The position numbers and the translations under genes were made by a program. This document shows, in pieces, positions 17,876 to 60,680 of a stretch of DNA of 60,756 nt (positions within the stretch are counted from its first letter, which is position 1; each line of letters begins with the position of its first letter). The notes beneath the pieces were generated by a model. That model saw nothing but the letters and a program-made list of their open reading frames with translations. It searched no databases and was not told the origin of the DNA. Origin of the DNA: Psychrobacillus sp. BL-248-WT-3. Its GTDB lineage: Bacteria; Bacillota; Bacilli; Bacillales_A; Planococcaceae. The stretch is from positions 1 through 60,756 of the forward strand of contig NZ_JABAFC010000021.1 of the NCBI RefSeq assembly GCF_012843435.1, given 5' to 3'.

Positions 17876-17991
17876 TTTATCACCGTTCGTACGGTTTTAT
17901 CACCGTTCGTTTCTATTTATCACCGTTCATACGGTTTTATCACCGTTCGTTTCTTTTTATCACCGTTCAAGGAGATTTTATCACCGGTAGG
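17876..17991. repeat. Phased repeat array A (six units, pitch 20 bp)
   Basis: Units begin with TTTATCACCGTTC at 17876, 17896, 17916, 17936, 17956 and 17977 (last unit diverged). Each keyword is followed by seven variable bases (GTACGGT, GTTTCTA, ATACGGT, GTTTCTT ...), so units alternate between two tails. The array lies between the mccB stop and its terminator and so would be transcribed in the 3' UTR of the operon. Confidence 0.9.
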
Positions 17992-18018
17992 TTGTTTTTT
18001 TAATAATTGAACATTTAT

Positions 18019-19152
18019 TTATCTTAGGGCTTGCTCTAGATCTTCTATTAGATCCTCAACATCTTCAATACCTACAGAAATGCGAACTAATCCATCGGTA
18101 ATACCTAATTCTGCTCTTCGTTCACTCGGAATTGAGGCGTGAGTCATACGTGCAGGTACGGAGATTAAGCTTTCTACAGCTCCCAAGCTTTCCGCAAGAG
18201 TAAAGTATTTTAACTTCGCCAACAGCTCATCTGCTTTTTCTGCACTTCCAACGTCAAAGGAGATCATTCCTCCAAATCCTGTAGCTTGTTTTTGCATCAG
18301 GTCATGGCCTGGATGAGAAGAGAGGCCAGGATAAAATACTTTTCCGACTGCATCGTGATCATTTAAAAACTCTGCTATTCGTTGGGCACTTTCATTATGC
18401 TCTTCCATACGTAAGCCTAGTGTTTTAATCCCTCGCATCAGCAGCCAGGAATCCTGCGGTCCGAGCACAGCACCAACGGAGTTTTGTACAAAATGCAGCT
18501 CACTCGCTAGCTCCTCGGAATTAACCACTGCAAGACCTGCTACTACGTCACTATGGCCTCCTAAATATTTTGTGGCACTATGCACAACGATATCTGCACC
18601 AAGTGCAATTGGCTGTTGGAAATAAGGAGTCATAAACGTGTTATCCACTATGGTTAAGAGTCCCTTTTCCTTTGCATATTTTGCTATAGCTTCTATGTCT
18701 GTTACCTTCAATAAAGGATTTGTTGGAGTCTCCAAGAAAATAGCCTTCGTATTTTCCTGAATAGCTGCCTCGACATTAGAAAGATCCCCTGTATCGACGA
18801 ATGTAGAATCGATTCCAAAACGATTCAATACTTTAGAAATCACTCGGAATGTTCCGCCATACACATCGTCCGTTAATAGGACATGGTCGCCCTTACTGAA
18901 GAGCATCATGATCGAGCTTGTCGCAGCCATTCCGGAAGAAAAGGCAAAGCCTGCTACTCCACCCTCTAAATCACTGATTAATACTTCTAATGCATGTCGA
19001 GTCGGGTTACCTGTTCGTGAATACTCATAGCCTTTAAATTTACCAACGGCTTCTTGCTTATACGTACTCACCTGGTAAATCGGTGTGGATACGGCACCTG
19101 TTGCTTCATCTCCAACGATTCCTGCATGAATAAGCTTTGTTTTTGCGCGCAT
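18019..19152 (-). CDS. mccB: Cystathionine gamma-lyase / homocysteine gamma-lyase
   Basis: 377 aa PLP enzyme of the Cys/Met metabolism family, cleaving cystathionine to cysteine, 2-oxobutyrate and ammonia. Visible motifs are [39 protein letters not shown] and the PLP-Lys block [20 protein letters not shown]. Position after mccA in the yrrT-luxS-mccA-mccB order matches the reverse transsulfuration operon known from B. subtilis (yrrT-mtnN-mccA-mccB), which is why mccB is preferred to metB/metC. It is the last gene; the terminator lies about 180 bases further on. Confidence 0.88.
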
Positions 19153-19156
19153 TTAT

Positions 19157-20086
19157 TTATTCCTCCTTGAATAATTCATATACCTTCTGGCTCAAATAGC
19201 GTTCACTAGAGTCCGGAAAGATGGTAACGATATGACTTCCCTCTAATACCACCTCTGCTTCCTTCATTGCTGCGTAGAAGGCAGCACCTGAGGAGCTTCC
19301 CACCAGTAAGCCTTCTTTTTTGGAGAGTCTACGCAACTCTGCAAAGGCGTTCTCATCACTAACGGTATGAATGGCATTGAAATAAGATGAGTCCATAAAC
19401 TCCGGTAAAAACTCCATGCCTATTCCTTCGGTTGCATGAGAGCCAGCTTCTCCACCATTTAAAATGGAACCTACAGGCTCTACGATTACTGTTTTTATTT
19501 TTTTATTCCGTTCCTTTAAAAAGGTGGACGTGCCCATAAAGGTTCCACCCGAGCCAGCTCCAGCTACAAACACATCAATTTGTCCCTCTAAATCTCTCCA
19601 TAGCTCTGGACCAAGTGTATGCTCATAAGTTTTTGGGTTAGCAGGGTTAGAAAATTGAGAGGGTGAAAAAGCACCTGGTGTGACTTTCACTAGCTCCTGC
19701 GCTTTCTTAATAGCCCCTTGCATACCTAATGCTGTGTCCGTATTTATGACCTCTGCACCCAGTGCTCGCATAAGGGTCTGCTTCTCGAGACTAAACTTTT
19801 GAGGAACTACAAACTTAACCTTATACCCCTTCCCAATTGCTGCGAGTGCAACACCAATTCCGGTATTCCCTGCTGTAGGCTCTATGATTGTCCCACCAGG
19901 AGTAAGCTTACCGGATTTCTCTGCATCCTCGATTAACGCTAGACCAAGACGATCCTTCACGCTACCACCTGGGTTTAGGTATTCAAGCTTTGCAAATATG
20001 CGGCAATTGTTAGGAATAGATATATTATTTATTTCTATTACGGGTGTATTTCCTATCAATTCTTGCACGCTATTAAAAATATTCAT
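19157..20086 (-). CDS. mccA: O-acetylserine-dependent cystathionine beta-synthase / cysteine synthase
   Basis: 309 aa PLP enzyme of the cysteine synthase fold II. PLP lysine in NPGGSVKDRLGL (Lys about 44), phosphate loop TAGNTGIGVALAA and VGSSSGAAFYAA near the C-terminus are present. In B. subtilis MccA joins homocysteine with O-acetylserine to make cystathionine; context with mccB and luxS supports that role over ordinary CysK, though the fold alone cannot tell. The stop is 4 bases before the mccB ATG and the start abuts the luxS stop codon. Confidence 0.88.
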   Translation of the reverse strand: MNIFNSVQELIGNTPVIEINNISIPNNCRIFAKLEYLNPGGSVKDRLGLALIEDAEKSGKLTPGGTIIEPTAGNTGIGVALAAIGKGYKVKFVVPQKFSLEKQTLMRALGAEVINTDTALGMQGAIKKAQELVKVTPGAFSPSQFSNPANPKTYEHTLGPELWRDLEGQIDVFVAGAGSGGTFMGTSTFLKERNKKIKTVIVEPVGSILNGGEAGSHATEGIGMEFLPEFMDSSYFNAIHTVSDENAFAELRRLSKKEGLLVGSSSGAAFYAAMKEAEVVLEGSHIVTIFPDSSERYLSQKVYELFKEE

Positions 20087-20557
20087 TTATGCTTCCTCTT
20101 TATAAATTTGTCGCCATTCATCTTTTTTAGAAAGCATTTCAGAAGCAATTTCTTTTGCTCCCTCTAAACTATGGCTAGCTGCCCACCCGCACTGTACCTC
20201 ATTACAAGCCGGTACCTCCGTTGCTTGCAGTACATCCTCTAACGTCTTTTCAAGAATGACAAGAATCTCATCATAATCCTCATGATTTATGACGGATAAG
20301 TAAAAACCAGTTTGGCAGCCCATTGGACTTAAATCTACGACTTGATCCGTATGGTTACGAATATTTTCAGCCATTAAGTGCTCCAGAGAGTGTAACCCTG
20401 GCATTTCCATATGTTCTTTGTTTGGTTGTTTAAATCTAATATCATATTTGTATATTTCATCGCCATGTTTTCCTTCTTTTGTTCCTGCTAGGCGTATAAA
20501 TGGTGCTGCTACTTTTGTGTGATCAAGGTTAAAGCTTTCTACGTTCATTTTTTTCAT
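20087..20557 (-). CDS. luxS: S-ribosylhomocysteine lyase LuxS
   Basis: 156 aa metalloenzyme that splits S-ribosylhomocysteine into homocysteine and DPD, the precursor of autoinducer-2. Metal ligands are His56 and His60 in [15 protein letters not shown] and Cys123 in NEVQCGWA; the catalytic Cys81 is in [10 protein letters not shown]. Start ATG 20557 is chosen for the AAGGAG site 9 bases upstream; the longer frame from 20608 overlaps yrrT and adds an untypical N-terminus. LuxS here occupies the place that mtnN has in the B. subtilis operon and feeds homocysteine directly to MccA. Confidence 0.92.
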
Positions 20558-20570
20558 TATAAATCGCTCC

Positions 20571-59546: not shown

Positions 59547-59837
59547 TTCATTTCCTGCCCTTCTTATGAACATGTTATTTTATACCTAAATACATTACAT
59601 GATAATACTTTACTACAATGCCTGAAGAAAATCTTTTGAATTGCCTTTGATAACGATTACATTCCGTTTCCAATATACGCTTCAACTATAGACGTTTCTT
59701 GAATTAATGTATAGTTATAAACGGGAATTGTCATAAATTTGTCCTCATTTCAAACCATCCCGAAAAAAGGTTGTTTTTAAATTTGCAAATTAGGGGAAAA
59801 TATAAATACAAAATATAAATATATTGGAGGAAGTTTA

Positions 59838-60326
59838 ATGAAATTATATATGACGTCCGGAACGCCTGAGTTTATGCAGTCCATAAAAGATAAACATCCC
59901 AATGAAAATATATACATTTTACATGGGACGGGAAATTCAGTTCTCATTCATGAAACGACTGGTAAATCCGTCTTTCAAGTCCCTCGTATTTATGAAATTT
60001 TAGAATCTCGCGGCAGTTTTAATGAGAATGGATACTTTGTCCTTCACCACATCCCCGTATCAGATGAAGGTAAACCAATATTTGAACATCAATATACAAA
60101 CCTGTCTCCAACTGTTGAATCTGAACCAGGCTTCATAGCTTTACGCGTTTTAAAACCTTTAAAATCAGATACTTATATTATCTTATCAGAATGGAATGGA
60201 CCTAATAGCTATGAAATCTGGGAAAAGTCTGTTGCACTAGACTTCACCAGTGTCGCAGATAAGCAACAGTTATTTACAAGCGCACCTTATATATCGACCT
60301 ATCGTTCGAAAACAAAAGAGGAATAA
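59838..60326 (+). CDS. hmoB: Heme-degrading monooxygenase HmoB
   Basis: 162 aa. The C-terminal ABM (antibiotic biosynthesis monooxygenase) ferredoxin-like domain (about 80-162: FIALRVLKPLKSDTYIILSEWNGPNSYEIWEKSVAL) with an N-terminal extension matches HmoB (YhgC) of B. subtilis, which cleaves heme and releases iron. It sits divergent from hemEH, as yhgC does in B. subtilis. GGAGG lies 9 bases before the ATG. Confidence 0.85.
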   Translation: MKLYMTSGTPEFMQSIKDKHPNENIYILHGTGNSVLIHETTGKSVFQVPRIYEILESRGSFNENGYFVLHHIPVSDEGKPIFEHQYTNLSPTVESEPGFIALRVLKPLKSDTYIILSEWNGPNSYEIWEKSVALDFTSVADKQQLFTSAPYISTYRSKTKEE

Positions 60327-60351
60327 GAATAGAGATTAATAAAGTAACGCT

Positions 60352-60384
60352 AAAACGCTCATAATCTGAGCGTTTTCTTATTTT
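60352..60384 (+). terminator. Terminator after hmoB
   Basis: AAAACGCTC-loop-GAGCGTTTT with TCTTATTTTT. Confidence 0.9.
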
Positions 60385-60462
60385 TAATATGTACAAAAAT
60401 TAAAATAATGATTCCTATTTTTGTAAAACACACGCGGCACAAAGAAAATAAATTATGTAAGA

Positions 60463-60680
60463 TTAATGGGACACTTTCCGCCTGCTTATGGGCGGTTCCT
60501 ACCTTTACGGGCGCTTTTCTCTGATTTATGGGACACTTCTAACCTGTTTATGGGCTCCTTCCTACACTTTATGGGACACTTTCCGCCTGCCTACGGGCGA
60601 TTCACACCTTTACGGGCTATTTTCTTTGATTTATGGGTCACTTCCACCTTGTTTATGGGCTCTTTCTTACTCTTTATGAG
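60463..60680. repeat. Phased repeat array D (11 units, pitch 21 bp, 105-bp higher-order repeat)
   Basis: Keyword TTTATGGG (or TTTACGGG) recurs with steps 22, 19, 21, 22, 21 then 22, 19, 21, 22, 21. Ten steps make two copies of a five-unit, 105-bp super-repeat starting at about 60466 and 60571, with an eleventh unit at 60676. Follows the hmoB terminator; what follows it lies outside the window. Confidence 0.92.

Follow-up and report, generated by a model that had tools for sequence, protein, structure and literature searches.

Dispersed repeats in bacterial genomes are usually put down to slippage or selfish DNA. Mycobacterial interspersed repetitive units (MIRU), variable-number tandem repeats (VNTR) and repetitive extragenic palindromic (REP)-type repeats are dispersed, intergenic and variable in unit number, with longer or palindromic units, and we know of no common pitch that they keep across different sequences. 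The nearest described kind to the arrays considered here is the STAR element of Staphylococcus, with a 14-bp keyword, locus-variable linkers of 40-44 bp (a pitch of about 54-58 bp by addition), a strain-variable number of units, a distinct last 'anchor' linker and an unknown function (PMC3532100; partial text). Direct repeats of similar unit length are also found in plasmid iterons, mostly of 17-22 bp, whose cooperative binding is abolished by a half-turn shift (PMC4980987; partial text), and in parC of the ParMRC systems, with units of 20 bp in pSK41 and 17 bp in pCW3 that are bound by a family-specific ParR (PMC9426499; partial text). Directly repeated binding sites at about two helical turns likewise occur at IS21, Tn7 and Mu ends, and the IS21 transposase requires two repeats, 23 bp apart (PMC10122671; partial text). 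Here we describe the arrays found in a 60,756-bp stretch of Psychrobacillus sp. BL-248-WT-3 (genome G000), hereafter the window, which carries four intergenic arrays, A to D, of short directly repeated words. These keywords, 10-14 bp long and separated by linkers of about 7-12 bp, differ between the arrays, and all recur at a pitch of 20-21 bp.

We compared the arrays with these systems. Like STAR elements, whose locations depend on the species (PMC3532100; partial text), they are dispersed intergenic direct repeats with a conserved keyword, a variable linker, many intergenic loci and variation in unit number. However, STAR elements form one keyword family with linkers of about 40 bp, whereas the present arrays comprise several families with much shorter linkers, and at one locus two genomes of one species differ in keyword family; none of the array keywords, compared by eye, matched the STAR consensus T(G/A/T)TGTTG(G/T)GGCCC(C/A). 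The rigid spacing is an indirect likeness to the phase-dependent binding of iterons, but iterons form one set at one origin, whereas the arrays occupy many chromosomal places with several keywords. Similarly, parC is one plasmid site beside parM, while the arrays are dispersed in the chromosome, and IS21 has two repeats 23-24 bp apart at the element ends, while each array holds 3 to some 45 sites (the upper figure inferred from a 0.9-kb run) and bounds no element. Among the eight proteins examined near arrays A-D there was no Rep, nor was there any ParM or ParR, for which no genome-wide search was made. Clustered regularly interspaced short palindromic repeats (CRISPR) have repeats of about 23 bp or more and spacers of about 30 bp, which the keywords and linkers do not fit, and this identity was rejected; Cas genes were not searched for. 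A literature search limited to open-licence papers returned no description of these arrays, which is not proof of novelty. The arrays thus belong to the dispersed intergenic direct-repeat kind, set apart by a two-turn pitch common to several families and by the family difference at one locus.

We then scanned the window and 40 further stretches of G000 (830,293 bp) for chains of 9-mers with at most one mismatch at pitches of 13-59 bp, filtering out low-complexity chains; the stretches had been picked partly around matches to the array A keyword, which favours family 1. As a result, chains of at least four copies were detected at 3, 14, 16 and 9 loci for pitches of 19, 20, 21 and 22 bp, counts in which the same arrays recur at neighbouring pitches, and at 1, 4, 2 and 1 loci for pitches of 40 to 43 bp, while the other 39 of the 47 pitches gave none. 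Three-copy chains at L020, L028, L032:19633 and L037:9588, probably chance or coding, were left out of the array counts. In the whole 3.8-Mb genome, the array A keyword gave 19 matches (reversed control, 0), 18 of them within arrays and one in apparent coding sequence. The array D keyword gave 30 exact matches, in runs of up to about 0.9 kb, and 142 with up to two mismatches, against 37 for its reversed control, and keyword pairs numbered 51 for family 3 and 49 for family 5 (control, 0). The arrays are dispersed in G000 and form at least six keyword families.

These results already refute a chance or assembly artefact. Some draft contig ends do fall inside arrays, which makes the copy numbers there uncertain, but the empty pitches speak against an artefact, as does G096, a closed genome labelled as the same species, which has arrays at matching places. 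The G000 contig ends lying within arrays were C34:1-311, the ends of C41 and C57, and the starts of C22, C58 and C60; short-read assembly probably breaks off within arrays, and the copy numbers at such contig ends may be too low.

The preliminary description of the window had proposed the four arrays as a possible class of element, with one keyword about every 21 bp, and had staked this class on enrichment of that pitch over others. All four arrays, with their different keywords, were present at their places, the enrichment was found, and the specific pitch, the intergenic position and relatives with matching pitch but other keywords bear out a single class. In detail, array A runs at 20 bp rather than 21 and array B contains one 18-bp step. 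Array B also has two keywords (AAGTGTTGCG, then AAYCTTGC), and arrays C and D have a higher-order five-unit period.

Comparison of G000 with G096 revealed gains and losses of whole array units. There are six units in G000 and two in G096 at the place of array A, and ten and about five at that of array D, while the length differences of 21 and 41 bp at the array B place correspond to one and two units. The two genomes hardly differ in array C at its place, and both carry further copies of it elsewhere at 70-81% identity. At one locus with flanks 97% and 91% identical (L037 in G000, L254 in G096), the array belongs to family 2b in G000 and to family 2a in G096, and another place (L229/L241) carries family 1 in both genomes in opposite orientation and with different units. 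In G104, of the same genus, the 400 bp at the place of array A contained no array.

The same pair of genomes was used to examine the constraint on keywords and linkers. In eight array rows with less than 15% difference, 11/588 keyword positions differed between G000 and G096, as against 47/543 linker positions; the other two of the ten rows, array A and L229/L216, were dropped (difference above 15%, register unclear), and the flankless L226 and L227 were left out. With the other genome as reference, the counts were 12/574 and 50/556, and the four arrays of unquestioned register gave 2/363 and 14/385 (p 0.004). A cruder first count, which included L229, had given 25/569 for keywords, 104/877 for linkers and 440/6132 for flanks.

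The spacing was rigid over linkers of nearly random sequence. In G000 all 49 of the family 5 pairs were exactly 21 bp apart, although the search pattern allowed 19-23 bp, and seven linker columns carried 0.52 bit or less; among the pairs listed for five genomes, 102 of 104 were at 21 bp and two at 20 bp. The 51 family 3 pairs of G000, again all 21 bp apart, comprised 42 distinct sequences. The keyword columns were fixed by the pattern in such pair searches and are thus uninformative there. Since ordinary intergenic DNA showed 234 gap openings per 1589 substitutions between G000 and G096 (0.147 per substitution), linkers so near random should often differ in length.

Further order was seen at the level of whole arrays. 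Family 1 arrays often close with a unit bearing ACCGGT, and TTGCACAAA is the ending of family 2b arrays both in the window and at L037; both patterns were noted by inspection, without statistics. In Sporosarcina, six of eight array places (L111 not among them) have a poorly aligning middle with one array on each side, the keywords of the two differing slightly and their order being constant; the other two are one single array and one pair without a middle. The distances from the last keyword of the first array to the first keyword of the second at the six loci are 81, 81, 91, 70, 82 and 81 bp, that is, in steps of about one helical turn. A period of 10.5 bp gives a vector length of 0.956 (p 0.00035 when compared with gaps drawn uniformly from 60-100 bp; p 0.0008 when the period may take any value from 10 to 11). 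These p values (0.0003-0.0008) assume independent loci, which these may not be; they would be weakened if the 81-bp loci descend from one another.

We consider it most likely, at a probability of roughly 0.5, that each array is a series of sites at which a sequence-specific DNA-binding protein docks, and that the arrays spread and turn over as dispersed repeats do. The 10-14-bp keyword would be the protein contact site, and the linker of 7-10 bp, free in sequence and nearly fixed in length, would set successive protein molecules two helical turns apart, side by side on one DNA face, with different keyword families read by different members of one protein family. Dispersed-repeat behaviour would account for the origin and spread of the arrays, whose length would change by whole units or five-unit blocks and which would be replaced at the same intergenic places. 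The specific pitch, the constraint on keywords relative to linkers, the rigid spacing, the whole-unit changes, the family difference at one locus and the dispersal are observed, and from them we infer a protein reading the keyword, its cooperative binding and a role served by the arrays, for which clustering or tethering of chromosome sites, or the upkeep of a selfish element, would be candidates. A conserved word, a length-steady linker and a common two-turn pitch are the expected marks of cooperative binding on one DNA face, and keyword families of little mutual similarity share this pitch; similar end units, recurring in several arrays by inspection, also count in favour. Among the candidates of the preliminary description, docking arrays are thus favoured by the keyword conservation and by the rigid spacing with near-random linkers. 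Phased curvature as a common principle was not upheld, in that families 2 and 5 have no A-tract per turn (by inspection, with no curvature computed).

Several points weigh against protein docking. No reader protein was found for the arrays, in agreement with the earlier statement that nothing identifies a partner gene. The keyword conservation comes from ten array rows of eight locus pairs in one genome pair. In these alignments 315/2948 flank columns differ, partly by misalignment, so that linkers are not shown to change faster than flanks. The aligned arrays with 25-bp edges gave 9 gap openings and 42 substitutions over 435 columns (0.214 per substitution, whole-unit changes being counted too, with no split by length), and recent spacing changes are therefore not rare. 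The mean family 1 pitch of about 20.5 bp would cause a slow phase drift in long arrays. The middle-gap phase comprises six loci in three distance classes, with a 12-bp period scoring 0.87 against 0.96 for 10.5 bp, and the sole measured Psychrobacillus pair, at 79 bp, is about 2 bp off phase. Finally, inspection of G096 revealed no consistent array strand relative to replication.

The strongest competing explanation is that of passive satellites, according to which one old 21-bp tandem repeat was spread by recombination, and the families are its diverged descendants, with a pitch that is inherited instead of selected and with no reader protein. We regard this as possible, though somewhat doubtful. 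It would account for length changes by whole units or blocks, the higher-order 103/105-bp blocks, the dispersed array C copies at 70-81% identity and the recent array indels, which are not rarer than elsewhere; STAR elements behave alike, with no known function (PMC3532100; partial text). The keyword resemblance that the preliminary description had pointed out is present but weak, being reached by 4 of 200 shuffles with consensus units picked by eye, and ACACTT, common to families 4, 6 and 2a, raises it; such slight similarity between families would also suit common descent. However, simple inheritance does not readily explain why differences are about 4.6 times as frequent in linkers as in keywords, why near-random linkers show no length change in families 3 and 5, or why one locus carries a different keyword family in two genomes. 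An origin of the arrays as transcribed repeats that bind a protein or act at transcript ends is much harder to accept, and we hold it very improbable. Terminator-like hairpins did lie within 130 bp of 9 of 20 array places, compared with 146 of 1000 random gap positions (places common to both genomes counted twice, two of 22 places without flank, array D not included), and the folding of array A was somewhat stronger than that of its shuffled versions (z -2.1 and -2.5), but the six other folds gave z from -0.47 to +1.53 and the window had no Rfam match at the gathering threshold.

Docking of a transposase, which would maintain the arrays as target sites or as the multi-site ends of an element of the Mu/Tn7/IS21 type, is disfavoured and in our judgement unlikely. 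At IS21-family ends in the genus, GAACACTTTT, which resembles keyword 2a, stands in a pair of direct repeats spaced 24 bp apart, and the IS21 transposase requires two repeats; IstB is present in G096 and G104, and G000 has two Mu-transpos_C matches. On the other hand, only 6 of the 19 genomes have IstB (E<=1e-30), G000 not being among them; for this reason and for their 24-bp spacing these ends were rejected as the source of the keywords. Mu-transpos_C matches occur in 10 of 19 genomes but in none of the array-bearing G096, G104, G087 and G129; moreover, the array pitch is 20-21 bp, not 23-24 bp, and the array A keyword is confined in G000 to arrays and the one coding-like place. The proposal that the arrays are decoys, copied into the chromosome from plasmid iterons or phage operators and titrating the replication or regulatory proteins of incoming elements, seems to us improbable. 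Iterons are of similar repeat length and are bound cooperatively, in dependence on helical phase, the fast keyword turnover would suit an arms race, and the viral-collection contig L291 (IMGVR_UViG_3300044267_004056), of 57% guanine plus cytosine (GC), has four copies of the family 5 9-mer core CGACCGATT 22-23 bp apart at its end (12403-12483). In contrast, blastn searches of arrays C and D and a family 5 array against 72,556 plasmids, and of array C against 50,697 phages, gave no match, in collections that are thin for these hosts. Pattern scans of IMG/VR returned 0, 6, 3, 0 and 12 stretches, chiefly single pairs or short runs, several with GC above 0.5. Short keyword runs were seen in the viral-collection sequences L276, L280, L283, L285 and L286. 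The last (IMGVR_UViG_3300047362_000672), phage-like with GP88 and YqaJ domains, has its own iteron-like array of TTTACTATCCCACGGAG at 9900-10120, partly in 21-22-bp steps, and no Rep among seven open reading frames (ORFs) examined.

The arrays and the terminator-like hairpins near them are listed in Table 1.

Table 1. Arrays and terminator-like features in the window.
Feature	Position	Strand	Description
Array A, keyword family 1 (TTTATCACCGTTC)	17876..17990	+	six units, steps 20, 20, 20, 20, 21 bp; TTTATCACCGTTC at 17876, 17896, 17916, 17936 and 17956; sixth and final unit, truncated, at 17977 = TTTATCACCGGTAGG
Array B1, keyword family 2a (AAGTGTTGCG)	25595..25705	+	six units, steps 21, 20, 21, 18, 21 bp; AAGTGTTGCG at 25595, 25616, 25636, 25657 and 25696; variant AAGTGTTGCA at 25675, giving the 18-bp step; continues into B2
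Array B2, keyword family 2b (AAYCTTGCR)	25725..25839	+	six units at 21 bp (AAYCTTGC units); terminates with AACCTTGCACAAAT
Array C, keyword family 3 (TTTACNACAAT)	32515..32844	+	3.2 copies of a 103-bp five-unit block; block steps 21, 21, 21, about 21 and 19 bp
Array D, keyword family 4 (TTTATGGGACACTT and relatives)	60463..60678	+	two copies of a 105-bp five-unit block
Terminator-like hairpin	17812..17839	.	immediately ahead of array A; sequence reading and hairpin scans
Terminator-like hairpin	32879..32903	.	past array C; sequence reading and hairpin scans
Inverted repeat followed by T-rich DNA (terminator-like)	60352..60376	.	ahead of array D; by eye only

The minus strand of the window contained zero occurrences of any of the four exact keywords. 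The 103-bp period of array C recurs in Sporosarcina G224 (C15:117339-117699) with another keyword. The eight proteins near arrays A-D comprise a pyridoxal-phosphate (PLP) enzyme, peptidases, an AMP-binding enzyme, an ABM-domain protein, an IS3-type element and one unmatched protein. The insertion with HTH_Tnp_2 and rve domains (26238-27704), which we take to be of IS3 type, lies about 400 bp from array B in G000 and is missing there in G096. Only 1 of 16 classified array places was a divergent gap, too few for a conclusion on a divergent-promoter role, and the ORF caller used for gene context was crude. A protein-coding origin was judged unlikely: open frames across arrays do exist, but the 21-bp periodicity makes these likely, and families with mixed 20/21-bp steps cannot keep frame.

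The strand of the arrays was also examined in G096, which has dnaA near 1 kb and a dif-like site at 1,948,011 (3 mismatches to the consensus). The strand bias raised in the preliminary description was not found there relative to replication, but some Sporosarcina genomes look imbalanced. A polar FtsK-type signal is unlikely, because each arm of G096 has arrays of families 1 and 5 on either strand (by inspection). The Sporosarcina unit pairs numbered 31 to 0 in G222, 36 to 9 in G210, 10 to 28 in G085 and 24 to 5 in G170, clustered on some contigs, with other genomes balanced (24 to 26 in G234).

We then examined the taxonomic spread of the arrays. The keyword-1 pair pattern matched Psychrobacillus faecigallinarum, Sporosarcina luteola, S. 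thermotolerans, Sporosarcina sp. ACRSL and Bacillus sp. PAMC26568, and single loci in one Duganella, one Bacteroidaceae metagenome-assembled genome (MAG) and one CPR3 MAG; within the family, 7 of 250 genomes had it. Other Psychrobacillus genomes use other keywords, namely GGGGAACTCG in G041, TTACTTGC in G087, GTTGGAAAA in G123, TTATCCGATT in G129 and CGACCGATT in G068, and two-turn arrays occur in at least 9 of 19 genomes of the genus, the remainder being only thinly sampled. Arrays of TTAYCACCGAYT at this pitch were present in 16 of 68 Sporosarcina genomes. One stretch from each of 18 further genera in the family, Sporosarcina being one of them, was scanned (325,211 bp in all); no chain of at least four copies was found at 19-22 bp and one at 35-37 bp, an absence that is weak, as 100 kb of G096 likewise gave none with about four expected. 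In the examined stretches of G096, the density is about one array place per 70 kb. In P. faecigallinarum (L097, 5850-6760), a module of terminator-like hairpin and family 1 array occurs in four tandem copies at about 211-231 bp. The Bacteroidaceae MAG, of an unrelated phylum, has a 22-bp array (L107, 4984-5149) with TTATGACCGTTCGTATCCGGC, which has part of keyword 1 in common.

More tentatively, the arrays might belong to a genus-wide system in which DNA-binding proteins of a rapidly diversifying family, each with its own keyword, load onto dozens of chromosomal arrays at two-turn pitch and gather or tether them; keyword and reader would co-evolve, leaving each species with its own words at one spacing. 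The keywords differ by family, by species and even at one locus, while the two-turn spacing is constant, which points to a shared physical constraint, and the simplest such constraint would be protein stacking along one DNA face. If this is not so, the arrays would show that a fixed spacing can persist without selection, itself needing explanation. If it is, the arrays would provide a natural assay of how DNA recognition evolves while the assembly geometry is kept, and the reader would be obtainable with an array as bait.

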